A stretch of 44,865 nt of DNA, from positions 1-44,865 of IMG/VR virus record IMGVR_UViG_3300012929_000029; one strand, 5' to 3'. Below are positions 5,847-42,923 of the stretch, piece after piece (within the stretch, counting starts at the first letter, position 1; the number at the start of each line of letters is the position of its first letter). The translations under genes and the position numbers were made by a program. Source of the DNA: a virus. The notes beneath the pieces were generated by a model, which saw only the letters and a list, made by a program, of their open reading frames with translations, was not told where the DNA came from and did no database searches.

Positions 5847-6075
5847 TACGATCGGCCTTTCGCCGCGCGATGGCGGCTTTTAGGTACGGTTTTAATCGAG
5901 GGTCACCGGTCTTGAATGCGGCACCGATGCCAGTTGCGGATTCGAAGTAGACGATCACATGGGCCGCAGAGCGTAGCCCATGGTCGTCGATTGGGATTCG
6001 TCGCATGTCGGCGACACGAAGTGCGGTAGCAAAACCCTCGCAGAGCACGTCCCCATCGGCCGTGCCGCCGATCAT
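5821..6075 (-). CDS. Small hypothetical protein in sugar operon
   Basis: 84 residues from the ATG at 6073-6075, which forms an ATGA overlap with the stop of the upstream glycosyltransferase; the 3' end overlaps the next gene by 26 bp. The overlap pattern is the main support that it is translated. The protein starts MIGGTADGDVLCEGFATAL, contains RRIPIDDHGLRSAAHVIVYF and ends in a basic helix (LKPYLKAAIARRKADRSEG). I do not recognise a family. It could be a small accessory subunit, or a remnant of a larger enzyme. Confidence 0.5.
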   Translation of the reverse strand: MIGGTADGDVLCEGFATALRVADMRRIPIDDHGLRSAAHVIVYFESATGIGAAFKTGDPRLKPYLKAAIARRKADRSEGLSHPL

Positions 6076-7169
6076 CGTCCGCCCCACGATGCGCCGCCGA
6101 TCACCGAAGTATATTCGAGCAGATAATTGCTTGCCATCACCTTGCGATCGAAACGTGTAACGGCATCTTCTCTCACGGCTATCGGACTGAAATAAAAGTT
6201 GCGGAAATCACCGCTGGCCCATCTCTCCGGCGGCACAGCAACGCCCTGTCCACCAACTACCTCAGGCACAGAACCACGCGCGATACCGAAGACCGGAGTG
6301 CCGCACGCCATGGCCTCTGCCATGGATAAGCCGAATGGTTCATTGAACCCAACCGGATACAAAAGCGCCCTCGCCTTGCGGTAGAGTTCACGCTTCGCCT
6401 GGTGGTGCTCGGTCATTCCAGCCGGAAGCCACCTGAAGTTGATGTTCACGACCTGGTGGGCTAGCCGCAGTGCTTCGTTCGCAAATTCCTTCTCGCTGTC
6501 CCAACGCATGTCGTCTGGGTGCTGACCGGCCATCACTAGTTCGATTCCGGTGTCCTTCGCTATCTCGATTGCCTGACGAAAACCCTTGGCTGGATGCCAG
6601 CGATTTAGGAATAGGAAGTAGTCATCCTTCGAGTAATCGCTTGGACAGTAAAAGTCCGTGTCAACTCCGCCGTAAACCACGTGCGCATCAGTGATCGGGC
6701 GCGTCGGCGGTCCGGCCAGGTCAGGCGTCGGCGTATTCCAGTAGTCGGTGTATCCATGAAGCGCACGCTGGCGCATCGCATGGGACCAAACGCAAACATT
6801 GCGACCATTCGCAGGGTGATTGTAGTTTCCGCCGAGCAACGTCGAGATTACTGGCCGCCCGTAATTCATGGCGCGGTCTGCGATGCATTTCTCGACACTG
6901 AAATCGTGCAGCACATCGCATTCAAGCAGTTCCGCTGTGTGACTTTCCCAGCATGCGAGCTCGCACGCTCGCGCGCTCGGCTCCGAAGCCCCGAGACTCG
7001 CCGGCATCTCGCACAGCTTGTCGGGCGCCTTCGTGCCGGCGGGAGCAAACATCACGACTTCGTGGCCAAGCTCGTGGAGCGCGATGGCCAAGTCTAGCAG
7101 CACAATATCTCCCGTGTGGACGGGCGTTGGGATTGGCCAACTGTGGGTTGAAACGATACCGATTTTCAT
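6072..7169 (-). CDS. Glycosyltransferase, GT4-like
   Basis: 365 residues; ATG at 7167-7169 in an ATGA overlap with the upstream gene. GT-B fold pattern: N-terminal MKIGIVSTHSWPIPTPVHTG donor/acceptor loop with the xxGG-like TGD, a second Rossmann domain starting DYFLFLNRWHPAKGF (residue 184 on, the usual lysine-bearing segment) and LVMAGQ, and the EPFGLSMAEAMACG motif at 277-290 with both glutamates (E277, E285) of the E-x7-E signature. This family retains donor stereochemistry and transfers from nucleotide sugars. No membrane segment is visible, so it is likely cytoplasmic. In this operon it is a candidate for attaching the deoxysugar to a virion protein or glycan. Confidence 0.85.
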   Translation of the reverse strand: MKIGIVSTHSWPIPTPVHTGDIVLLDLAIALHELGHEVVMFAPAGTKAPDKLCEMPASLGASEPSARACELACWESHTAELLECDVLHDFSVEKCIADRAMNYGRPVISTLLGGNYNHPANGRNVCVWSHAMRQRALHGYTDYWNTPTPDLAGPPTRPITDAHVVYGGVDTDFYCPSDYSKDDYFLFLNRWHPAKGFRQAIEIAKDTGIELVMAGQHPDDMRWDSEKEFANEALRLAHQVVNINFRWLPAGMTEHHQAKRELYRKARALLYPVGFNEPFGLSMAEAMACGTPVFGIARGSVPEVVGGQGVAVPPERWASGDFRNFYFSPIAVREDAVTRFDRKVMASNYLLEYTSVIGGASWGGR

Positions 7170-10232: not shown

Positions 10233-10882
10233 GGTTTTGTCGCCTCTGCCGCCCAACTGTGCGACATGCCGGCATCAACGCACTCGGCGAAGACATCCGA
10301 CTTGGCATCGAACGTCACGTCCGTAAACCCGATTACCTCGAGCAGTGCCTTCGCGTGACGCTTCCCGAGGCAGGCCATATGACCCTCATAGTTTTCCGTG
10401 GTACATGCGGGCCCGCACGCGCCAAACATGATGTAGCTCAGCTGCGCATCAGGCGTGACCTGCATGTAAAATTCTGGCTGCTCGTGCGCGAAGTCGTCCA
10501 TCTTGCCTTCCCAGTAGGCGTTGAGCAGTACGTCCAGGTCTGGCGTCGTGATGCGAACCTTGCCGCCCGGCTTGAGCATTCGCCAGCACTCTCCGAGCAG
10601 CCTGGGGAGCTCGACGATCGGTTGCATGTGCTCGACTACCTGACCCAGATAGATAGCGTCGATGCTCGAGTCCGCGAACCGATGCAGGTCGTAGCGCATG
10701 TCCAAAACGCTGCAGCTCACGGCGCCATTACGCGCGTGGTCGGCCATCTTCTGCTGATGCTCGGGCCACGTCGAGATATCTCCAGAATGCCGGAGCGTTT
10801 CTAGATAGCCGGACATATCGATCTTGTCGAGATTAGTCCAGCCCGGAAACATGTTGGCTGCGCAGCCTAGATTAAGTCTCAC
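10229..10882 (-). CDS. Class I SAM-dependent methyltransferase
   Basis: 217 residues from the GTG at 10880-10882, in a GTGA overlap with the upstream gene; an in-frame extension to 10960 would run over that gene. VRLNLGCAANMFPGWTNLDK is motif I with the GWTNLD continuation typical of a group of methyltransferases found in phage and polysaccharide clusters. RFADSSIDAIYLGQVVEHM (middle) and MLKPGGKVRITTPD are motifs IV-VI of the Methyltransf_11-like fold. The C-terminus has several cysteines (FGACGPACTTENYEGH). Substrate unknown; sugar or glycan methylation is the simplest guess from the operon. Confidence 0.82.
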   Translation of the reverse strand: MRLNLGCAANMFPGWTNLDKIDMSGYLETLRHSGDISTWPEHQQKMADHARNGAVSCSVLDMRYDLHRFADSSIDAIYLGQVVEHMQPIVELPRLLGECWRMLKPGGKVRITTPDLDVLLNAYWEGKMDDFAHEQPEFYMQVTPDAQLSYIMFGACGPACTTENYEGHMACLGKRHAKALLEVIGFTDVTFDAKSDVFAECVDAGMSHSWAAEATKP

Positions 10883-13446
10883 ACAACTACCGCCTTGTAG
10901 AATTTCGGCACGACGCGCCTCCGCACATCGTTCAGGATATCGAGTAGCATCGTTTCCCATTCCGACGCAAGCTCTTCTAGCCCGAAGTGTTTCCGAGCAT
11001 ATTCTTGCAGTGCCGCGCGGTCGTCAACGGCTCGAGCGCCCAGGGTCTCGGTCATCGCCATCACCACTGCCGCCGCAAACGTCTCGATATAGCCCGGCGT
11101 TCCGAACCCGGGGACGAGCTGTCCGCGATCACCAACCGTCTCGTTCAGGGCCGCCAGCGGCGACGTGACGATGCGGCATCCGGCGGCCTGGGCTTCCATT
11201 CCGGTGAGGCACGAGGTCTCTGTGAATGCGGTGCTGAACGTCCACACGCCACACCGCAATTGCTCGCGCGCCAGCTCCTCGCCATTCACGCGCCCACGCA
11301 CGCGCACGCCAGCGGTGCGCGCAAGCTTCGCTTTGAGATGAGCGATTTTCTTTCGCTCATTATCGTCGGCGCTTCGCTCCCAATTTTCGAAGCCATAGAA
11401 GACGTGCAGCTCCGCGTCTGGTATCGACTTGCGAACGACGGGCCACACATCAAGCAGTACATCGAGTCCTCGGTCTGGGCTCGAGCTGTAGAACGCGCGT
11501 CGCGCGTTGCGCGTCTCTCGTCCGTCGTATCTCGTCAGATCGATACCGTTGCGCGTGACCAGGATTTTTTCTGGATCGATGAGCGGGTAACACCGCCGGA
11601 GGAACGACTTGTGCCAGTTGCTGAGCGCGAGGATTCGGTCAAAACGAATGTTTCGTTTGTGAGTGAGCTGCGGTCCGCAATGCACATCGTGCAGCCACAA
11701 AATGCGAGCACCGGCTGTGATGCCCGCGCCATCGTCGACTACTCCGGGTTGTCGGGAAGAGATGAGCACGTCACAGTGCCGCGCTCCCGGTCTACCGCCG
11801 TAATCACCACTGAAGAATTCGTCGCATCCGATGAATTCGACTCCGTCGAAAGTTCCGGCAGGTGCACCGGGACCAACATGCCCGATGAGGCGAACCCCGT
11901 GACCTCGCTTGGCGAGGCGCCGAGCGAGCTCCCAGGCCATGGTTTCGCTTCCGCCGAGTCCGGTACGAGCGATAGTTTCCCCGTTCCACGGCTCGAAGCC
12001 CGGGCCAACGAAGAAGATGATGTCGAGCTTGCCCGGAGAGCGCGCAGCGCGTGGATGCCCATCAGTGCCTCCCGAAACCCCGGCACCGTTACTGCGAAAA
12101 GGCAGAACGCGCCCGGGAGCCGCGTCAGGCACGTGAGGCGTGGGCGGCTGAAGTTGTACGCTGAAATCATCACTAAGGGCCATCCTTATCACGGCGTCCG
12201 CGCCGGCGGCGAGAGCCCCTGCCTGCTGCAATACGCTTGTTTCCGCAAGCACCCGCCGCTTCGCTCGCTCGATGTGGAAGGCCTTGAGGTTTTTTTTCAT
12301 CAGCTCATGTTCGGGCATGACACGCAGCCCGGCCTCGAGCGACCCGATCGCGTCATCTAGATGCCCGATACTGCCTTGGCACACGGCAAGGACCTCGTGC
12401 GCGCGTGCTCTCTCGGTCGGATCCTGCGCGAGCAATGACTGCGCAACGTCGGTCGGCACGAGAGACATCCCGATTTGACCAAAATGCACAGCACGCTCGT
12501 AGTTCAGTCGCTCGCTACGCTTATCCTGACGCCCGATCGAGTAATAGCTCCGCATCAGCACCCAATACGCCTCAGGGAAATGCTTCGTTTCGCTCGCACG
12601 AAACGCCCACCGGATCGCTTCATCGTGATCGTTCAAGCGCTGGTAGTGGCGAGCAATCTCGAGCAACGCAAGGAACTTCTCATCAGCCCAATAGGCGAGC
12701 TCTACGTAGCGTTTCAGCACGCGCAAAGAGGCGCCTGTGTTTTCGAGAAACGCGCCAATATCACCGCGACCGTACCCGCGCATCGCTTGCAGTCCGAGTT
12801 CCACGCCGTAGTAATAGAGACTGCGAACATCTTCCTCGCCGACACGCTCGATGTATTTTCGCAAGATACGTAGATTGCGCTCGGTCTCGCGTGTCTTGCC
12901 CGAACCTGACCCATGCACGAGTCGCACGGACTCATCGCGGGTAGCAACCGAGAGTTCGTGGCCGGCGGTGAGCAAGCAGCTTTCATGCACCGGGAAGCGC
13001 CATTCCCAGTGCTTGCGCGGGTACAGCATACGCTCGCGATACTGCAGCAAAGTCACGCGCCCTTGCTCGTCATGCGCATACTCGTACGGCAGGATGACTT
13101 GCGAATTTGGATATTTCACCAGTTCGGCAGCGATGAGCGGCAGGTGTTCGGCCCCCTGGAGCACGTCATCACCATCGAGCCAAAGCACTACGTCGTTGCT
13201 CGCGATCGCAAAGCTTCGGTTCCGCGCAAGAGAGAAGTCGTCGATGCGCCCTTCGGCATCGTTGCAGTCGAGAAAAACTTCGAACTTGTCAGCGATTTTT
13301 CGCGCGATGGCCGGAGTGTCGTCGGTTGAACCGGTGTCGACGATTACGATTTCGTCGACGTATTGTCTAATCGACGCGAGACACGCCTCAATGGTGCCCT
13401 GTTCATCGCGCACGATCAGGCAAGCGGATATTTTATTGGTCGTCAC
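10879..13446 (-). CDS. Bifunctional GT2-TPR-GT4 glycosyltransferase
   Basis: 855 residues from a GTG at 13444-13446 with GAGGAG upstream. Residues 1-230 are a GT2 domain: ISACLIVRDEQGTIEACL, VDTGSTDDT and the metal-binding LWLDGDDVL (DxD). Residues about 230-400 are helical repeats resembling TPRs (LEIARHYQRLNDHDEAIRWA and EVLAVCQGSIGHLDDAIGSL). A Pro-rich linker (about 430-480) leads to a GT-B/GT4 domain: KLDIIFFVGPGFEPW, GLGGSETMAWELARRLAKRG, FYSSSPDRGLDVLLDVWP and TETSCLTGMEAQAAGCRIV. Two active domains would add two sugars in sequence or work on different linkages; the TPR part may bind a protein acceptor. It starts the sugar operon and is the largest enzyme in the window. Confidence 0.88.
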   Translation of the reverse strand: MTTNKISACLIVRDEQGTIEACLASIRQYVDEIVIVDTGSTDDTPAIARKIADKFEVFLDCNDAEGRIDDFSLARNRSFAIASNDVVLWLDGDDVLQGAEHLPLIAAELVKYPNSQVILPYEYAHDEQGRVTLLQYRERMLYPRKHWEWRFPVHESCLLTAGHELSVATRDESVRLVHGSGSGKTRETERNLRILRKYIERVGEEDVRSLYYYGVELGLQAMRGYGRGDIGAFLENTGASLRVLKRYVELAYWADEKFLALLEIARHYQRLNDHDEAIRWAFRASETKHFPEAYWVLMRSYYSIGRQDKRSERLNYERAVHFGQIGMSLVPTDVAQSLLAQDPTERARAHEVLAVCQGSIGHLDDAIGSLEAGLRVMPEHELMKKNLKAFHIERAKRRVLAETSVLQQAGALAAGADAVIRMALSDDFSVQLQPPTPHVPDAAPGRVLPFRSNGAGVSGGTDGHPRAARSPGKLDIIFFVGPGFEPWNGETIARTGLGGSETMAWELARRLAKRGHGVRLIGHVGPGAPAGTFDGVEFIGCDEFFSGDYGGRPGARHCDVLISSRQPGVVDDGAGITAGARILWLHDVHCGPQLTHKRNIRFDRILALSNWHKSFLRRCYPLIDPEKILVTRNGIDLTRYDGRETRNARRAFYSSSPDRGLDVLLDVWPVVRKSIPDAELHVFYGFENWERSADDNERKKIAHLKAKLARTAGVRVRGRVNGEELAREQLRCGVWTFSTAFTETSCLTGMEAQAAGCRIVTSPLAALNETVGDRGQLVPGFGTPGYIETFAAAVVMAMTETLGARAVDDRAALQEYARKHFGLEELASEWETMLLDILNDVRRRVVPKFYKAVVV

Positions 13447-36163: not shown

Positions 36164-38068
36164 CTACGCAGCTGCCGCCATTGGCTGGCGCGGAGCGGGC
36201 GGCACCGCCGGCAACTGATCAGTCGGCGGCGCAGGCGGCGTCATGAGCCCGTCCAGCTCCTGGATGTACCGAGCTAGCAGCCCAATATTGAACTCCGCCT
36301 TGCGCCGTTCAGACGCGGGCAGCGAGGTCTGATCGATGCGTGCCCGAAACCATGCCGAGGCGAACCGGCGCACGGCTCCGACCTTGTTCGCGATAAATCC
36401 CTCAGGCGCCTGGTAGTCCTCTGCGCTCCAGGTCACCTGGTCAGCGTCGAGATATTGCTCGATGAGCGAATCGATGTATTCGGACTCGGCGTTTTCGACG
36501 TTCAGCTCCGAGTCGAGGTCTGGCCAGCCGATGAGCATCTTCGCCGTTTCCTGCGAAATCAGCGAGGATTTGTACATATCCTGCACCATCTCCTGACGTC
36601 CCGCCGGATCATGCGGTAGCGCCGAGCTTGGCGCGACTGAGACAGAAAACTCATCGTCTTTCGCGTCGGCATCGGCCCATTTCACCGTGCGCAGCAGTGA
36701 TTTCCCTGGCCACTGAATCACGAACTCCGGATCGTCTTCTCCAAGCTCCCGCAATCGCCAGACGTATTGATGCGCGAGATCCACGTACGCCTGCTCATAG
36801 CGCTGGGATTTCACCAGCTGCCGCCCGGCCTTCGTATCGTTCAGTGTCAAAATTGCGATGCCGCTCTGTACCCCGGGCTCTCGCCGCGCCGCTGCGCTCA
36901 CTTGCGATAGTCCGATCGCATCCCAGAACGCCGCCACGCGCTGCCGCAAAAAATCGAGCTCCATCGGAGCAAACGGGGTCGAGACACTCTCAGTCGGCGG
37001 CTGAGCGCCGTCGTACGCGACGCCAACCACCGCATCATTGAGCATCAGGTCGTCCGGCTTCACGCTATCGCGCGGATAGTAAATCTTCTTTCCGCTCGCG
37101 ACGATCTCGCGATACATCAGCCGCTTGTCGAGCTCAGAGCATTCTTCGGCGATCGCCGCGCCCTCATCCGCGATGCCGCTCCCCCAAAACCCATCCCGAT
37201 GAGGTTCCCACACCAAAAAAACGAAGGGGAACGACGGCGCTGTCCACTCGCCAGAATCGACCACCGTCCCGTTGATGATCGCCGCCCATTTGCCAGGTTC
37301 ATCCTCGGACACCGGCAGGTGCCAGGCATAGACGATCTCAATGACCCGCGTCGCACGCGGCCTCGAGGTCACGGCCCGCCCATACCATTCGTAATTCTTC
37401 GCTCCTCGAATCGCCTGCTTCGCGCCCTTACCCTTGAACGTCTTGTACGCCGTCCACTCATCAATCGGCGCGCGCTGAAATAAGCTCTGGGGGTTACGCC
37501 CTTCGCTCGGATCGACGAACAGGTCCGGCAACGGGACGAGCTCGTGCACGATCTTTTTCTTGACCTGATCGGCCACCACCTTGATGCAAGCGACGCCCTG
37601 TAGTGCGGCGTCCGCCGCCGCATCGACCATGAACGACCAGACGTTAATCCAGCGCCCTTGCCGTTGGTTCAGGATGCCTTCGCAAATTCGGTCGAGCCGA
37701 TAGGCCTTGCGCCGCGTCGCCCATGTCGCGCCCAGCGTCTGGAACTGTGGTTTCGGTTTCTGCGGCGCGTACACGCTTGCAACCGCGCTCGCAACCGCCG
37801 AACGCACGAGCCGCAAACGATCCACGCGAAACGACTGCTCCTCGAATGCCGAATCGACATACGAGTGCGCCGAGTAGCCCGCCATGCGGCGCCCCTCGTA
37901 GATTTCCAGGTTACGCACGTAGCGCGCGCGTCGACCCGACTGCTCGGTCTTGTATCCATCAACGATACGCGCGACGTTCGGACCCATCTGCTCGGGCGCC
38001 TGCTCGTGCCAGGGCTCGCCGTCGTCGATGGTGCTCCGTGTCAGCGAACGTGTGGTCGGCTTAGCCAT
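36164..38068 (-). CDS. Portal protein
   Basis: 634 residues; the ATG at 38066-38068 has GAGGGG upstream and overlaps the terminase stop by 8 bp. Podoviral portal pattern: YVRNLEIYEGRRMAGYSAHS, PLPDLFVDPSEGRNPQSLFQ, FVFLVWEPHRDGFWGSGIAD and the DKRLMYREIVASGKK segment. It forms the dodecameric DNA channel at the capsid vertex, binds the terminase and joins the adaptor. Size fits portals of short-tailed phages (about 550-700 aa). Confidence 0.82.
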   Translation of the reverse strand: MAKPTTRSLTRSTIDDGEPWHEQAPEQMGPNVARIVDGYKTEQSGRRARYVRNLEIYEGRRMAGYSAHSYVDSAFEEQSFRVDRLRLVRSAVASAVASVYAPQKPKPQFQTLGATWATRRKAYRLDRICEGILNQRQGRWINVWSFMVDAAADAALQGVACIKVVADQVKKKIVHELVPLPDLFVDPSEGRNPQSLFQRAPIDEWTAYKTFKGKGAKQAIRGAKNYEWYGRAVTSRPRATRVIEIVYAWHLPVSEDEPGKWAAIINGTVVDSGEWTAPSFPFVFLVWEPHRDGFWGSGIADEGAAIAEECSELDKRLMYREIVASGKKIYYPRDSVKPDDLMLNDAVVGVAYDGAQPPTESVSTPFAPMELDFLRQRVAAFWDAIGLSQVSAAARREPGVQSGIAILTLNDTKAGRQLVKSQRYEQAYVDLAHQYVWRLRELGEDDPEFVIQWPGKSLLRTVKWADADAKDDEFSVSVAPSSALPHDPAGRQEMVQDMYKSSLISQETAKMLIGWPDLDSELNVENAESEYIDSLIEQYLDADQVTWSAEDYQAPEGFIANKVGAVRRFASAWFRARIDQTSLPASERRKAEFNIGLLARYIQELDGLMTPPAPPTDQLPAVPPAPRQPMAAAA

Positions 38069-39572
38069 AGGCCCCTCGACGCTTCCGCTCCTGCTCACGC
38101 ATCACACGCTTGCGCTCCGCCGCCAGCTCGAGCTTGATCGCTTCCGGCGAGCCGGGCAGCGCAGCGTTCTCTTGTGGCTCGTACTTCGGATTCATCGCAT
38201 GCGTTATGTAAAGCATGCTGTCCGCCAGATGTCGAGTATATCGCTCGTCTTCGAGCCCGGTCTCCTCATCGAACTGAAGCTTGCGGCACTCTTCAACGAG
38301 TTCGCGACACTTGCTGAAGTCCATCAGCAGGCCCGCGCCGCCCAAATACAATCCGTCCGCTCCTTTTTCCGGCGCGTGACCGGTCAAAATCAGTCCGCGC
38401 AAAATCTCTTGATGCGCGCGTTTCCCACGCTTGGCTGCTGGCTCGCACGTGACGCCCATCGATCGCATCTGCTCGGCGTAGCCGACGCCAAGCGCGCCCT
38501 CATCGACCACAACGCGCAGACCGATACGCTCGGGCGTCGAGCCCATGCCACCCGCTTCGCGCTGCACGAGCTCGCGCACGCCTTGTACGTGCGCCGCGAG
38601 TGCCGTCGGAATGAGCCGCGAACGCGTGTATGCCGACAGCACGAACACCTGCCCGGTGCCACGCCTGACCGCGATCAGCACGAATCCGGTCGAATGCAGC
38701 GAAAATCCGAGGTCCACCCCAAGCCCATAACTGTATTCGCCCGGCGGCAGCCCGAATGGGAGCTCGCCATCCGGCGACCAAGCATTCTCGCTCGTGAGCG
38801 GATAGACGAGCGCACCGATGTCCTCGGTCCACTCGCCCAGGTATTCGCGGCGATAGGTCGGGTGGTCGTCGGTCCAGTTGTTTCGATCTTTGTGCTCATC
38901 TAGCCACCGCTGCGCGTGCGGGACGTGCGGGTTATCGAGCACGGTCCAGTGATGAGTTGGCCAGCGTATGACATCCGGATCTCCTCCCGTCGTCGCGGCC
39001 CAAAAATATCCGCTCGCCACCGGACTCGGCGTGCCGGCCAGCGCCAGCTCACCCTGCAAATCCATCAGCGCAGGCTCGATGGCCTCTTCAATGAGGATCT
39101 TGAGATATGAACCGAACGCTTGCGCCTCGTCGACCACGGCGCGCCGCAGTCGTTCACCACGAACCTTAGCCACTTCGCTCTGATTGTCGATGCCGAGCAA
39201 CCAGATCCGATGGCCGTTTTCGAGCGCGATGTAGAGCTGACCCTCATCATGCTTCAGTCGGAGGCCGAGTTTGTAGCGATCGCTCAGTCCAGCGAGACAG
39301 TCATCCCATAGGATGGACTTCGCCTTGCCCCGAGTGAGCGCAATGAACAGCGACTTGCCGCGCGGGCTGTCTTCTCCGCCCTCGAGCAGCCAGCAGCCGA
39401 TGCCGTGCGATTTACCACCACGCCGCGACGTGAGTGCGCATTTGCGCTTCGAGCGGTCGTCGACGAATGCGCGTTGCTTAGGGTGACAGTCGTCGACGTA
39501 GCTCGGCACGAACCCGGCCAGCGCCCGGAGAGCGCGGTAGGTAGACGCCGGCATGTCGACAGATGCGCTCAT
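38061..39572 (-). CDS. terL: Terminase large subunit
   Basis: 503 residues; ATG at 39570-39572, ATGA overlap with the GroES-like gene. ATPase: Walker A-like SRRGGKSHG (49-57), Walker B RRAVVDEAQ (143-151). RNase-H nuclease: GVDLGFS with D287, VVVDEG with D357, HLADSML with D451. It cuts concatemers and pumps DNA through the portal. Gene order (terminase then portal then scaffold) is standard. Walker A reads RRGGKS rather than GxxxxGKS, which is normal for this clade. Confidence 0.92.
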   Translation of the reverse strand: MSASVDMPASTYRALRALAGFVPSYVDDCHPKQRAFVDDRSKRKCALTSRRGGKSHGIGCWLLEGGEDSPRGKSLFIALTRGKAKSILWDDCLAGLSDRYKLGLRLKHDEGQLYIALENGHRIWLLGIDNQSEVAKVRGERLRRAVVDEAQAFGSYLKILIEEAIEPALMDLQGELALAGTPSPVASGYFWAATTGGDPDVIRWPTHHWTVLDNPHVPHAQRWLDEHKDRNNWTDDHPTYRREYLGEWTEDIGALVYPLTSENAWSPDGELPFGLPPGEYSYGLGVDLGFSLHSTGFVLIAVRRGTGQVFVLSAYTRSRLIPTALAAHVQGVRELVQREAGGMGSTPERIGLRVVVDEGALGVGYAEQMRSMGVTCEPAAKRGKRAHQEILRGLILTGHAPEKGADGLYLGGAGLLMDFSKCRELVEECRKLQFDEETGLEDERYTRHLADSMLYITHAMNPKYEPQENAALPGSPEAIKLELAAERKRVMREQERKRRGAYG

Positions 39573-39985
39573 TCTGCCGCTTGTTCCACTTCTGCCACGG
39601 TTTCGATCACTGCGTAGGCTTCCATCTCTCTAATCAGTCTGAATTTTGCCTGCACGCCGAGCAGCTCAGCAAACTCGTGCCCGACGTTGTGCCTCGGGAT
39701 TTGCAAGTCGAGGCGGTAGTCGTTGCCCGGATTTGCATCCACAACGATCCTGTCGCCCGGCTTCAGCTCGCATGGGACGAAAACTTCGGTCGGCTCGGAC
39801 ACAACGCGATCACCGAGCAGTCTGCGCGTGGTGCGCCAATACCCGGGCCCAACCGCGAGCACGAGCGCGGTGCGTGAAGCTCGAGCCGTCGGCCCTTGGC
39901 CAGCGAGGATTTTGATTCCATGCGCAAACTCCTCTTGCTCGGGCTCTAAGATACAGACGACGTTGTCTTGCGTCGGCCGGATCAT
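39569..39985 (-). CDS. GroES-like co-chaperonin
   Basis: 138 residues from the ATG at 39983-39985 (ATGA overlap). MIRPTQDNVVCILEPEQEEF and the loop EEFAHGIKILAGQ align with GroES strand 1 and its mobile loop (GIKI at 23-26 in place of the GroES GIVL, the tripeptide that docks GroEL). LVLAVGPGYW and ELKPGDRIVVDANP match the GTVVAVGxG and PGDxV segments. It would replace host GroES so that GroEL folds a phage protein, probably the capsid. It lies between terminase and a small membrane gene. Confidence 0.7.
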   Translation of the reverse strand: MIRPTQDNVVCILEPEQEEFAHGIKILAGQGPTARASRTALVLAVGPGYWRTTRRLLGDRVVSEPTEVFVPCELKPGDRIVVDANPGNDYRLDLQIPRHNVGHEFAELLGVQAKFRLIREMEAYAVIETVAEVEQAAE

Positions 39986-40203
39986 GGCTTTTCTATTCCG
40001 ATCACCTGCGCGATCTTTTCGACAACGCGTTCCTCGTGCCCCCATGCATCCAAATAATGCGAGAGCCCGGCGAGTAACGCGACCAGTGTTGCCTGCATTG
40101 CCTCCGGCGCGAGCGGCACGAACTGCTTTTGCAGCGCGACCAGCGCAGCGCCAGCAATAGCTGCAGCGACGGCAGAAAGCGCTTTTTTAAGCATCGGATT
40201 CAT
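39982..40203 (-). CDS. Small membrane protein (holin-like)
   Basis: 73 residues; ATG at 40201-40203 overlaps the upstream stop by 4 bp. MNPMLKKALSAVAAAIAGAA is a hydrophobic helix, and ATLVALLAGLSHYLDAW a second, with a charged C-terminal tail (HEERVVEKIAQVIGIEKP). Small size, two helices and a charged tail fit a holin, but it is next to the packaging genes, not the lysozyme, so the call is tentative. Confidence 0.5.
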   Translation of the reverse strand: MNPMLKKALSAVAAAIAGAALVALQKQFVPLAPEAMQATLVALLAGLSHYLDAWGHEERVVEKIAQVIGIEKP

Positions 40204-40619
40204 CGGTGCACCGCCACGCTCTGTTGCCACGGCCCCGAGTTCTCGCGGGTCACCGGCTCATGCACCAGGTTGTCAACCTCGCTGTACATACCGTTGCCAA
40301 AAAATATGAACGCCCCGTAGCGCTCGGTCGAGCCGCTGTATGGGTCCGCGTTGAGCTCGATGATCACCCGCACGAATCCTTGCGGCATGATCGTAATCCG
40401 GCGCACGAGCCCACTCAGTGAACCGCCGCCGGCGAAGTGTTGACCGACCACCAATCCGAAGCCGCCGGTGTGTGCCATCATCATCGGCAGCGTCAGCGTC
40501 GTCACATCGATTTCGCCGGTCCAGTCGAGCGGCTTGAGAGCGGGCGACGGCGGCGGCGCCGGTAGGCTCACCACTGGCCGCGCGCCATTGGCCACGGTGA
40601 CATCACTTGGTCTCGTCAT
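40200..40619 (-). CDS. Hypothetical protein upstream of terminase block
   Basis: 139 residues; the ATG at 40617-40619 has AAGGAAAGG upstream and overlaps the previous gene by 17 bp. Pro-rich N-terminus (VSLPAPPPSPALKPLDWTGE) then a beta domain: GGFGLVVGQHFAGGGSLSGL, RRITIMPQGFVRVIIELNAD, RYGAFIFFGNGMYSEVDNLV. No family recognised; possible structural role. Confidence 0.55.
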   Translation of the reverse strand: MTRPSDVTVANGARPVVSLPAPPPSPALKPLDWTGEIDVTTLTLPMMMAHTGGFGLVVGQHFAGGGSLSGLVRRITIMPQGFVRVIIELNADPYSGSTERYGAFIFFGNGMYSEVDNLVHEPVTRENSGPWQQSVAVHR

Positions 40620-40905
40620 TTTGCCTTTCCTTCATCCGCAGCTCCGCCGATTTTATCAGCCGCTTCGCCTCTTCCAGCGGCACGCTCACGCTGTCGCCTG
40701 GGCTTCGCTTACCGTCCGCGCTGAGTAGCCCGTAAATCTTAGCCTGCAGCTCGAGAATCTTCGGCAATGCCGTGAGGTCCGGCATCGACACGCCGTTTTC
40801 CGCAGTGCGGTCGAACGCCAGGTCCTTCGCCCGATCAATATCCGCGTAAAGCCGCTCGACCGCCCGAATTCGGTCAAACGGCTCCGTCGCCTCTCGCTCG
40901 GCCAC
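40603..40905 (-). CDS. Small helical protein, possible terminase small subunit
   Basis: About 100 residues; start uncertain. A GTG at 40903-40905 gives VAEREATEPFDRIRAVERLY; a TTG at 40942-40944 would add 13 residues with three cysteines. Helices IDRAKDLAFDR and LTALPKILELQAKIYGLLSA precede a C-terminal VPLEEAKRLIKSAELRMKER. It lies at the head of the packaging genes and ahead of the AGGTGGTCCA array, the place where small terminase subunits are usual, but no helix-turn-helix is obvious. Confidence 0.5.
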   Translation of the reverse strand: MAEREATEPFDRIRAVERLYADIDRAKDLAFDRTAENGVSMPDLTALPKILELQAKIYGLLSADGKRSPGDSVSVPLEEAKRLIKSAELRMKERQNDETK

Positions 40906-41041
40906 ACAGCCAGCACCGTCGCACGCCTGCGGGCAACTGCGCAAGCGTCACGCCTCCCTCGACGGCCAGCTCCTGTGCAACGCCGCGAATTAGGTCGGCT
41001 CGCCCGCGGAGCAACGCGAGCGTCCCTGGACGACTGGACAT
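40874..41041 (-). CDS. Short open frame, doubtful gene
   Basis: 55 residues, ATG at 41039-41041: starts MSSRPGTLALLRGRADLIRG and ends with a CWLC pair (RRCWLCGRARGDGAV). It overlaps the previous entry and has no clear ribosome binding site. The frame has sensible helical sequence (GVAQELAVEGGVTLAQLPAG), so it may be the true N-terminal part of the neighbouring gene separated by a frameshift, or a small gene of its own. Confidence 0.3.
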   Translation of the reverse strand: MSSRPGTLALLRGRADLIRGVAQELAVEGGVTLAQLPAGVRRCWLCGRARGDGAV

Positions 41042-41438
41042 GTTTTTTTGGACCGCCTGGACTTCTGGTTTTGGTTTGCGTGACCATATGGATATGGGCA
41101 AACCTTGACCTTTTTTCTGTACCGGCCGGCCAGTGGACGCTTTCTAGGTGGTCCAAACCGGGGTGGTCCAACAGGTGGTCCGTTAGGTGGTCCATGACCA
41201 CCCGGCATCATTTGTGCCTATTGGACCACCTAGACCACCTAATATAGAAATAACCCATAGGAGGACTGAGCATTTACAAGAAAATAGGATCTACAAAGTT
41301 TGGTCTCTTTTTTTGCTCGAGGTGGTCCACGTGCAAGCCATTGATATAATGGAGCAAAAAAAACTGGACACCTCCGCCTGACAAAAAGGAGGTGGTCCAG
41401 GCGGTCCAAGACGGGCGAGTCAGGCGACTCTGAGTGGC
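41042..41438. other. Intergenic region carrying the AGGTGGTCCA array
   Basis: About 400 bp without a supported gene. It contains the 10-bp repeat array (listed separately), AT-rich stretches at 41241-41252 and 41341-41362, and two excellent anti-SD matches with no start codon at the right distance (41258-41265 TAGGAGGA; 41385-41393 AAGGAGGTG, part of a repeat). A small stem GAGTC-AGGC-GACTC at 41417-41430 follows the helicase-primase stop but has no T-run. Overall it looks regulatory or replicative. Confidence 0.6.
41049..41408. repeat. AGGTGGTCCA repeat array (about 11 copies, both orientations)
   Basis: Forward copies: 41146-41155, 41161-41170 (GGG start), 41173-41182 (ends CCG), 41185-41194, 41320-41329, 41390-41399, and AGGCGGTCCA at 41399-41408. 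Reverse copies: 41049-41058 (TGGACCGCCT), 41195-41203 (partial), 41222-41231 and 41231-41240. The copies at 41185-41194 and 41195-41203 form an inverted repeat: GGTGGTC (41186-41192), CAT, GACCACC (41196-41202). Spacings of 12 bp (41173 to 41185), 9 (41222 to 41231) and 15 (41146 to 41161) occur in the left cluster. This looks like an iteron/operator array for a DNA-binding protein, possibly the replication origin or packaging site. Exact copy boundaries are by eye. Confidence 0.85.
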
Positions 41439-42671
41439 CTACGTATTGGAATTAGCTGGGTAAACTCGGATTTTATGACCTGCAACGAGTTCGCGACGGC
41501 CGATGAAGTTGGCTCTTGCGAGGATAGCGCCGACTCTGGTTTCGGCGCTTTTGCTCCAGCGCTCGGCTGGGATATTTAACGGGCCGCCGAGGACATCGGC
41601 GAGGGTGAAGGGTAGCAGTCGTTGCTCAGCCCAGTCAACGACCGAGCGAGTCCAGGGGTCCTCCTGGTAGCGCTCTTCCTGCTCCTCGGTAATTGCAGCA
41701 ACGAAATCCTCGGTAGGGTAGTATTGCTCGCCGCGTTTGAGGCGATCGCGGGCCTCGGCCCAAAGCTGATCGCGGGCGGCGCGCAGTAGCCGGATGTCGA
41801 TGGAGCCACAGCGGATGGGCCAGAAGCGGCGTGCGCCAGTTGGGTCGGAGAGCGACAGGAGATTATTGGTCGTGCCGGCGAAGACGACTGAGCGTTCGCG
41901 GCGTACGAAGTGGTGGCCGTAGGCCGGGCGATAGATGTCGACGGTGCGCGTGATGAAGTCCTTGACGGCCGTCACCTCACTGCGACGCAGGGCCTCGAGC
42001 TCGCCGCACTCGACGATCCAACGACCGTGCAGGGCGTGAGCGGCGCGCGTGCCGTCGTTGATATCGGGCAGCTCGGGCAGGTACCAGGCGCCCCCGAGCA
42101 CGCGCAGGGCGGAGCTCTTGCGGATCCCCTGGGGCCCCTCCAGGAGCAGCATGTGGTCGACCTGGCATCCGGGCTGTGTTGCACGTGCAACAGCGCTGAT
42201 GAGCCACCAGGTGCCCACAGCCGAGGCGTAGGGCGTGTCCTCACACCCGAGGTACTCGTGGCACCAGTGTGGCAGCCGCTCGATCCCGTCCCAATCGAGT
42301 GACGCCAGGTACTCGCGCAATGGGTGGACGGTATTGCGACGGCCTGCGGCCGAGACAGCTGAGTTTATTGTTGACTCGCGATAAGTAACCTGCATCGGGT
42401 TACCAACGCGGGAAAAATAGTGCTGGACATAGACGGTGTCCTGATCGGACAGGTCTGCACCCTGGCGCGGCAGCGTAAATTCATCGAGCGGCGGCGGCGC
42501 CTTGGCCCAGAACGTGCGATCGCCGAATTCGTCGTAGGCGATACAGCCGCGGAATGCGCCGTTGGTCAACATCAGGTAGGCATTACCAACCTCGGCCGTG
42601 ACGATGCCCTTGGCGTTGGCCTTGAGCGCACGCTTCCAGTCGTGGCCGCTCATATCGATGAGGTCACCCAT
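41439..42671 (-). CDS. VirE/D5-type helicase-primase ATPase
   Basis: 410 residues; ATG at 42669-42671. SF3/VirE-type ATPase: RNTVHPLREYLASLDWDGIE (about 112-131), the Walker A region LLLEGPQGIRKSSALRVL with GPQGIRKSS at 179-187, Walker B-like RWIVECGELEAL (217-228) and VVFAGTTNN (262-270), a sensor-like segment with the ARRFWPI arginine finger region after it. These proteins unwind DNA and are often fused to primases; here the primase half is not evident. The Walker A has Arg instead of the usual Gly before Lys (GIRKSS). It is the main replication gene and sits just before the iteron-like array. Confidence 0.82.
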   Translation of the reverse strand: MGDLIDMSGHDWKRALKANAKGIVTAEVGNAYLMLTNGAFRGCIAYDEFGDRTFWAKAPPPLDEFTLPRQGADLSDQDTVYVQHYFSRVGNPMQVTYRESTINSAVSAAGRRNTVHPLREYLASLDWDGIERLPHWCHEYLGCEDTPYASAVGTWWLISAVARATQPGCQVDHMLLLEGPQGIRKSSALRVLGGAWYLPELPDINDGTRAAHALHGRWIVECGELEALRRSEVTAVKDFITRTVDIYRPAYGHHFVRRERSVVFAGTTNNLLSLSDPTGARRFWPIRCGSIDIRLLRAARDQLWAEARDRLKRGEQYYPTEDFVAAITEEQEERYQEDPWTRSVVDWAEQRLLPFTLADVLGGPLNIPAERWSKSAETRVGAILARANFIGRRELVAGHKIRVYPANSNT

Positions 42672-42710: not shown

Positions 42711-42923
42711 TCACTCGCCGCTCGCGAGTTTGCGAGCCTGTCTGCTGTTGGCGAGCGTCGCGCCACGGAGTAAATCGGTGCCTCGCCGCAGCACCTCGGC
42801 CTTGGACAGGCCGAGACTGTCGGCGAGTTTCTGGAGCTGGGCGAATTCGGCCGCCGTAAATCGGAGCTGAAAGCGCGTGCTCCGCGGGCGCTCCGGCAAG
42901 TAATTTGATGACGGTTTCCGCAT
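42711..42923 (-). CDS. Ribbon-helix-helix DNA-binding protein
   Basis: 70 residues, ATG at 42921-42923. STRFQLRFTAAEFAQLQKLA (about 15-34) is the ribbon strand and helix A, and LGLSKAEVLRRGTDLL (about 37-52) is helix B, the RHH/CopG pattern. RHH proteins bind direct repeats as tetramers. No good ribosome binding site is visible; the start lies close to a predicted -10, so translation may be leaderless. It is a candidate regulator for itself, the helicase-primase downstream and the AGGTGGTCCA array. Confidence 0.7.
   Translation of the reverse strand: MRKPSSNYLPERPRSTRFQLRFTAAEFAQLQKLADSLGLSKAEVLRRGTDLLRGATLANSRQARKLASGE

Follow-up and report, generated by a model that had tools for sequence, protein, structure and literature searches.

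The 44,865-nucleotide viral contig analysed here, taken as a whole as the window, contains an array of AGGTGGTCCA iterons that is very probably the replication origin of the phage, of the SaPI/PICI type. As judged from the sequence, the iterons would be bound by the C-terminal winged helix of the adjacent VapE helicase, and two hexamers would be loaded. The original prediction had proposed this site as a candidate origin or packaging site. The first of these readings is well supported by the AT-rich core between iteron sets, by the initiator-type helicase encoded on its 5' side and by the repetition of this anatomy in many VapE relatives.

The iteron array and its AT-rich core

The array occupies the non-coding gap that separates the helicase gene (stop at 41439) from the ATG of the next open frame (41041), both on the minus strand. 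AGGTGGTCCA occurs there ten times, exactly or with one mismatch, over about 360 bp (41049-41408), seven times on the plus strand and three times on the minus strand, and the densest cluster consists of four direct iterons at 41146-41194. The earlier count of about eleven elements in both orientations was a fair one, given these ten copies and a half-site, GACCACC, at 41196-41202. The half-site also forms the inverted pair previously placed at 41186-41202, which reads GGTGGTC-CAT-GACCACC. The features of the array and its neighbourhood are as follows.

40603-41041, minus strand: two overlapping open frames in different frames (40874-41041 and 40603-40944), read from the sequence
41049-41058, minus strand: outlying iteron AGGCGGTCCA, one mismatch
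41146-41155, plus strand: iteron AGGTGGTCCA, exact
41161-41170, plus strand: iteron GGGTGGTCCA, one mismatch
41173-41182, plus strand: iteron AGGTGGTCCG, one mismatch
41185-41194, plus strand: iteron AGGTGGTCCA, exact
41196-41202, minus strand: inverted half-iteron GACCACC, partner of 41186-41192, read from the sequence
41222-41231, minus strand: iteron AGGTGGTCCA, exact, first of a close-set double iteron (arm 41221-41240)
41231-41240, minus strand: iteron AGGTGGTCTA, one mismatch, second of the same double iteron, with one base common to both
41241-41319, no strand: AT-rich core by AT content, proposed DNA unwinding element
41320-41329, plus strand: iteron AGGTGGTCCA, exact, within the AT-rich region
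41334-41389, no strand: second AT-rich stretch, AT content 0.57
41390-41399, plus strand: iteron AGGTGGTCCA, exact, first of the opposite double iteron (arm 41390-41409)
41399-41408, plus strand: iteron AGGCGGTCCA, one mismatch, second of the opposite double iteron, with one base common to both
41439-42671, minus strand: VapE-family (PF05272) AAA+ helicase, 410 aa, Pfam E = 4.7e-71
42711-42923, minus strand: RHH protein, 70 aa, adjoining the helicase gene; NikA-like profile match below the cut-off

The array is far above chance: the 9-mer AGGTGGTCC, with at most one mismatch, occurs ten times in 41021-41420, as compared to a maximum of five in 300 dinucleotide shuffles. In a contig-wide scan for 9-mer arrays, the sole higher scorer was a simple 12-bp tandem repeat at 2-347. 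This repeat, at the contig start, comprises about 29 copies of the unit CGCTGCCACGCG and overlaps open frames.

The AT-rich stretches noted previously within the array are real, as the AT-richest 80 bp of the contig begins at 41241 (AT content 0.66, versus a contig mean of 0.39). Moreover, among 8944 windows of 149 bp, just four have an AT content as high as that of 41241-41389. This stretch is flanked by inverted double iterons that the original prediction had missed: 41221-41240 and 41390-41409 form a 20-bp inverted repeat, 90% complementary and 149 bp apart, with one iteron (41320) inside. The anatomy is that of a classical origin, in which a DNA-unwinding element lies between two iteron sets.

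Two other types of origin were considered and rejected. A DnaA-dependent iteron plasmid origin does not agree with the contig, which contains no match to the DnaA box TTWTNCACA anywhere, and a lambda-type origin, with iterons inside the initiator gene, does not agree with an array located in a non-coding gap outside the helicase gene. An Rfam search gave no match. The raw cumulative GC-skew minimum falls at 40984, only 65 bp from the array, and the third-position skew flips sign between the same-strand genes on either side of this position. The minimum shifts to 26042 after detrending, and no GC-skew extremum was found at the array in the three relatives examined. Since the raw minimum, although suggestive, was not robust, GC skew was not used as origin evidence.

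The position of the gap also bears on a transcriptional reading, in which the array would be the regulator-bound control region of the leftward structural operon. The promoter of a leftward operon starting from 41041, if any, would indeed fall within the gap. However, no sigma-70-like promoter was found in the array region, similar arrays occur where the downstream genes are unrelated, and this reading leaves the AT-rich core between inverted iteron sets unexplained. We therefore regard it as highly improbable as an account of the array, while transcriptional control could coexist with origin function.

The VapE helicase and other candidate binding proteins

The AlphaFold2 model of the helicase, for which ten viral homologues were aligned, has a mean pLDDT of 85. 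The model has a helix-helix-helix-strand-strand fold at the C-terminus (residues ~341-404), which is predicted to be a winged helix. The best PDB fold match is 7PDS, the structure of PriRep1 with dsDNA (E = 7e-28), which is also the best match by sequence (E = 2.9e-46; by profile, E = 3.3e-95). PriRep1, annotated as 'similar to D. nodosus vapE' and solved with dsDNA, belongs to the same helicase family as the contig protein. On the other hand, the contig protein is shorter (410 aa versus a 477-residue chain), with 24% identity in the structural alignment.

The original prediction had placed the array between a helicase-primase and the packaging genes. Its position holds, but the VapE helicase carries no fused primase, and a search of the contig for a Prim-Pol domain gave no match. 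The packaging genes adjoin the array in a loose sense, as the start of TerL is about 1.5 kb away with small open frames between. The closest helicase relatives (L277 and L278) are proteins of about 715 aa, extended at the N-terminus by a part that resembles a primase domain, and in L324 the helicase and primase-like parts appear to be separately encoded.

From this arrangement, we infer that the helicase is the binding protein, that the site is the origin and that loading involves two hexamers. The VapE helicase, encoded directly upstream in its own reading direction, would bind the AGGTGGTCCA iterons via its C-terminal winged helix. The iteron sets on both sides of the AT-rich core, including the inverted doubles at 41221-41240 and 41390-41409, would place two opposed hexamers, which would melt the core and load themselves. 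Such self-loading would allow replication to begin without a DnaA-type loader.

The binding protein suggested previously was the RHH protein encoded at 42711. Proteins of the RHH family are known to bind clustered short repeats of either orientation, and the RHH gene adjoins the helicase gene, so that the array might be an operator or partition site like those of omega, ParG and ParR. However, tblastn detected no homologue in the other VapE loci searched, with the caveat that short proteins can be missed. The array-bearing relatives L278 and L324 have other genes upstream, which, as read by eye, resemble those for an SNF2-type helicase and a VRR-NUC-like protein. Furthermore, the array is located 3' of the helicase gene, not at the RHH promoter. 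Binding by the RHH protein thus seems very unlikely, and the helicase, with its predicted C-terminal winged helix, is the better candidate.

Arrays beside VapE helicases in related phages

To survey VapE helicases for similar arrays, we searched for 9-mer arrays at 30 VapE loci, in the first 450 bp beyond the 3' end of the helicase gene, and compared each locus with 60 shuffles. The loci were mostly phages from ranked tblastn lists, together with homology-found viral contigs, the contig itself and L153, which does not count as independently drawn, having come from a motif scan. An array beating all 60 shuffles was found at 18 of the 30 loci (the contig included), with 7-11 copies at 13 of these 18, while the remaining 12 loci had no significant array in this interval. 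Among the 5' flanks of the helicase, no VapE locus of the 30 reached seven copies. A separate search for PF05272 in 100 genomes of one phylum gave one match and was of no use.

The array-positive loci belong to phages of Bacillota, Bacteroidota, actinobacteria and proteobacteria, and their arrays are often split around an AT-rich core. The iteron sequences differ, as illustrated by TGTAACACC in Lactobacillus phage LfeSau, GGGATGACC in Marinobacter phage PS3, CGTCCCTTT in Staphylococcus phage 2638A and GTAACAACC in APSE-7. In Pseudomonas phages LPPA36 and Haddon, CTGTCCCAC arrays with nine and eight copies, respectively, lie one open frame further on. The array layout beside the helicase recurs across these phages with different repeat sequences.

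A second, homology-only sample from IMG/VR (36 loci after dereplication) was the source of L278 and L324. L278, with a helicase 45% identical to that of the contig, has five direct copies of TGGTCCAAC, an AT-rich core and then six inverted copies (11 in total), and L324 has six direct iterons, an AT-rich core and six inverted iterons (12 copies). As compared to these two, the contig array is less symmetric, with a plus-strand iteron in the AT-rich region and the outlier at 41049. Two of the four streptococcal satellites tested, Javan292 and Javan217, have an array 3' of the VapE gene, and none was detected by the same test in Javan469 and Javan518.

Across 24 loci, iterons tended to be more similar where the helicase C-terminal domains had higher identity (rho 0.22, permutation p = 0.002), and this relation was stronger than that with identity in the helicase core (rho 0.14, p = 0.057). 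This covariation, which is weak and confounded by phylogeny, fits the helicase as the binding protein without proving it.

The genes that follow the arrays bear on the packaging reading, in which the array would be a pac or cos site for the small terminase subunit. The contig array abuts the head and packaging gene block, with TerL at 38061, and in Caulobacter phage BL94 the helicase is followed by the array, an open frame, terS and terL, in that order. However, BL94 is the only annotated relative with a terminase close behind the array; in most of the others, the following gene encodes a VRR-NUC nuclease or another non-terminase protein. Nor was a recognisable terminase small subunit found in the whole contig. 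The frames at 40603-41041, which read like one gene split by a real frameshift or a sequencing error, have no family match and could be called terminase-small by position only. The array keeps its place beside the helicase even as the gene behind it changes, which disfavours packaging, and we assign that reading only the slightest probability.

Beside TerL, 39569-40045 (minus strand) encodes a small protein with a weak match to the GroES co-chaperone (NF001528, E = 8e-4, below the cut-off). Glycosyltransferase-like phage proteins are encoded at 10879-13446 and 6072-7169 (minus strand).

Other helicase families and known origins

Blind motif scans of viral contigs and GTDB genomes required GGTGGTCC in both orientations. 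A viral-contig pattern of three tandem GGTGGTCC was swamped by coding repeats, Gly-Gly-Pro-like and mostly spaced by multiples of three, and was therefore replaced by both-orientation patterns. Most matches still lay within open frames, but a small set consisted of multi-copy intergenic arrays beside replication genes. Arrays were located directly 3' of helicases of the VapE (L153), DUF927 (L048), Prim-Pol/AAA_25 (L141 and L150), AAA_25 (L212) and D5/DUF5906 (L157) types. The GTDB matches were mostly in long open frames; the one convincing array beside a helicase was that of L212, a Mycobacterium MAG that also has an integrase-like open frame nearby. Weak or different cases (L133, L134, L144, L151, L155, L115, L196 and L201) were not counted. 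With the reversed motif as a control, no intergenic array was found, and all 24 matches were inside open frames.

A near-identical GGTGGTCC iteron thus adjoins unrelated helicase families (L048, L141, L150, L157, L212 and L153). SaPIbov1 Rep and SaPI5 Rep belong to the DUF927 and D5/Primase_C helicase families (PMC7581432). A C-terminal domain common to the helicase families with GGTGGTCC arrays was looked for and not found. It is conceivable, but unlikely, that such iterons serve the origins of unrelated initiators (VapE, DUF927, Prim-Pol/AAA_25 and D5), which would then share or exchange either a single specificity of origin recognition or a common host factor. As the collection is very large, the co-occurrence may instead reflect chance sampling of 8-mers.

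Among known systems, phage P4 resembles the contig in that its initiator helicase, alpha, binds short iterons accompanied by AT-rich DNA. P4 requires two separate sites, ori and crr, whereas the contig has a single array. P4 alpha and P4 ori are mentioned in the study of PICI replication (PMC6092414). In that study, PICI origins adjoin the 3' end of rep, an AT-rich region separates their two sets of iterons, and a plasmid carrying rep and ori is able to replicate. With SaPI/PICI origins, the contig shares the multiple short iterons that lie directly 3' of the initiator gene and flank an AT-rich region (PMC6092414). It also shares an initiator that is an AAA+ helicase with a C-terminal DNA-binding domain, predicted in the contig protein, for which self-loading may be supposed. 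The C-terminal domain of SaPI Rep recognises iterons just downstream of the rep gene (PMC7581432, citing Ubeda 2007). The contig differs from SaPI/PICI elements in its iteron sequence and in its VapE-class helicase without a fused primase. Its terminase, connector-type and lysis genes also make it look like a phage genome, not a satellite. Given that PICIs are satellites without their own head, tail and TerL, the possibility that the 44.9-kb contig is itself a PICI was ruled out by its TerL, head-tail adaptor match and endolysin.

In SCCmec, Cch2 binds repeats directly downstream of the cch2 gene, at a putative origin with the same placement as the contig array, and its isolated helicase C-terminal domain binds these repeats in vitro (PMC7581432). 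This system differs from the contig in its D5/Primase_C-type helicase and in having only three AAGTG iterons, with no replication in vivo demonstrated. In pRN1, an essential element likewise lies directly 3' of a primase-SF3 helicase-winged-helix gene (PMC4234260), but it is a stem-loop of about 100 nt, where the contig has iterons.

The kind of origin proposed here is already known as the SaPI/PICI type, and the contig adds a probable phage example. The PICI study calls the rep-ori organisation unique to PICIs (PMC6092414), which is why the breadth of the VapE arrays matters. In openly licensed papers, we found no description of such arrays as widespread on the 3' side of VapE helicases in full-size phages. 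Our survey argues that VapE phages share the PICI-type layout, and hence PICI and phage VapE replicons may have a common ancestry; a phage and a satellite could vie for one another's iterons or else evade them. The analysis provides a concrete origin candidate for this phage and, for many other phages, the rule of looking directly 3' of the VapE helicase gene; hosts of VapE-type phages include staphylococci, streptococci, Bacteroides, corynebacteria, Pseudomonas and more. The variation of the iteron sequence from phage to phage beside one helicase family offers natural material on the evolution of initiator specificity.
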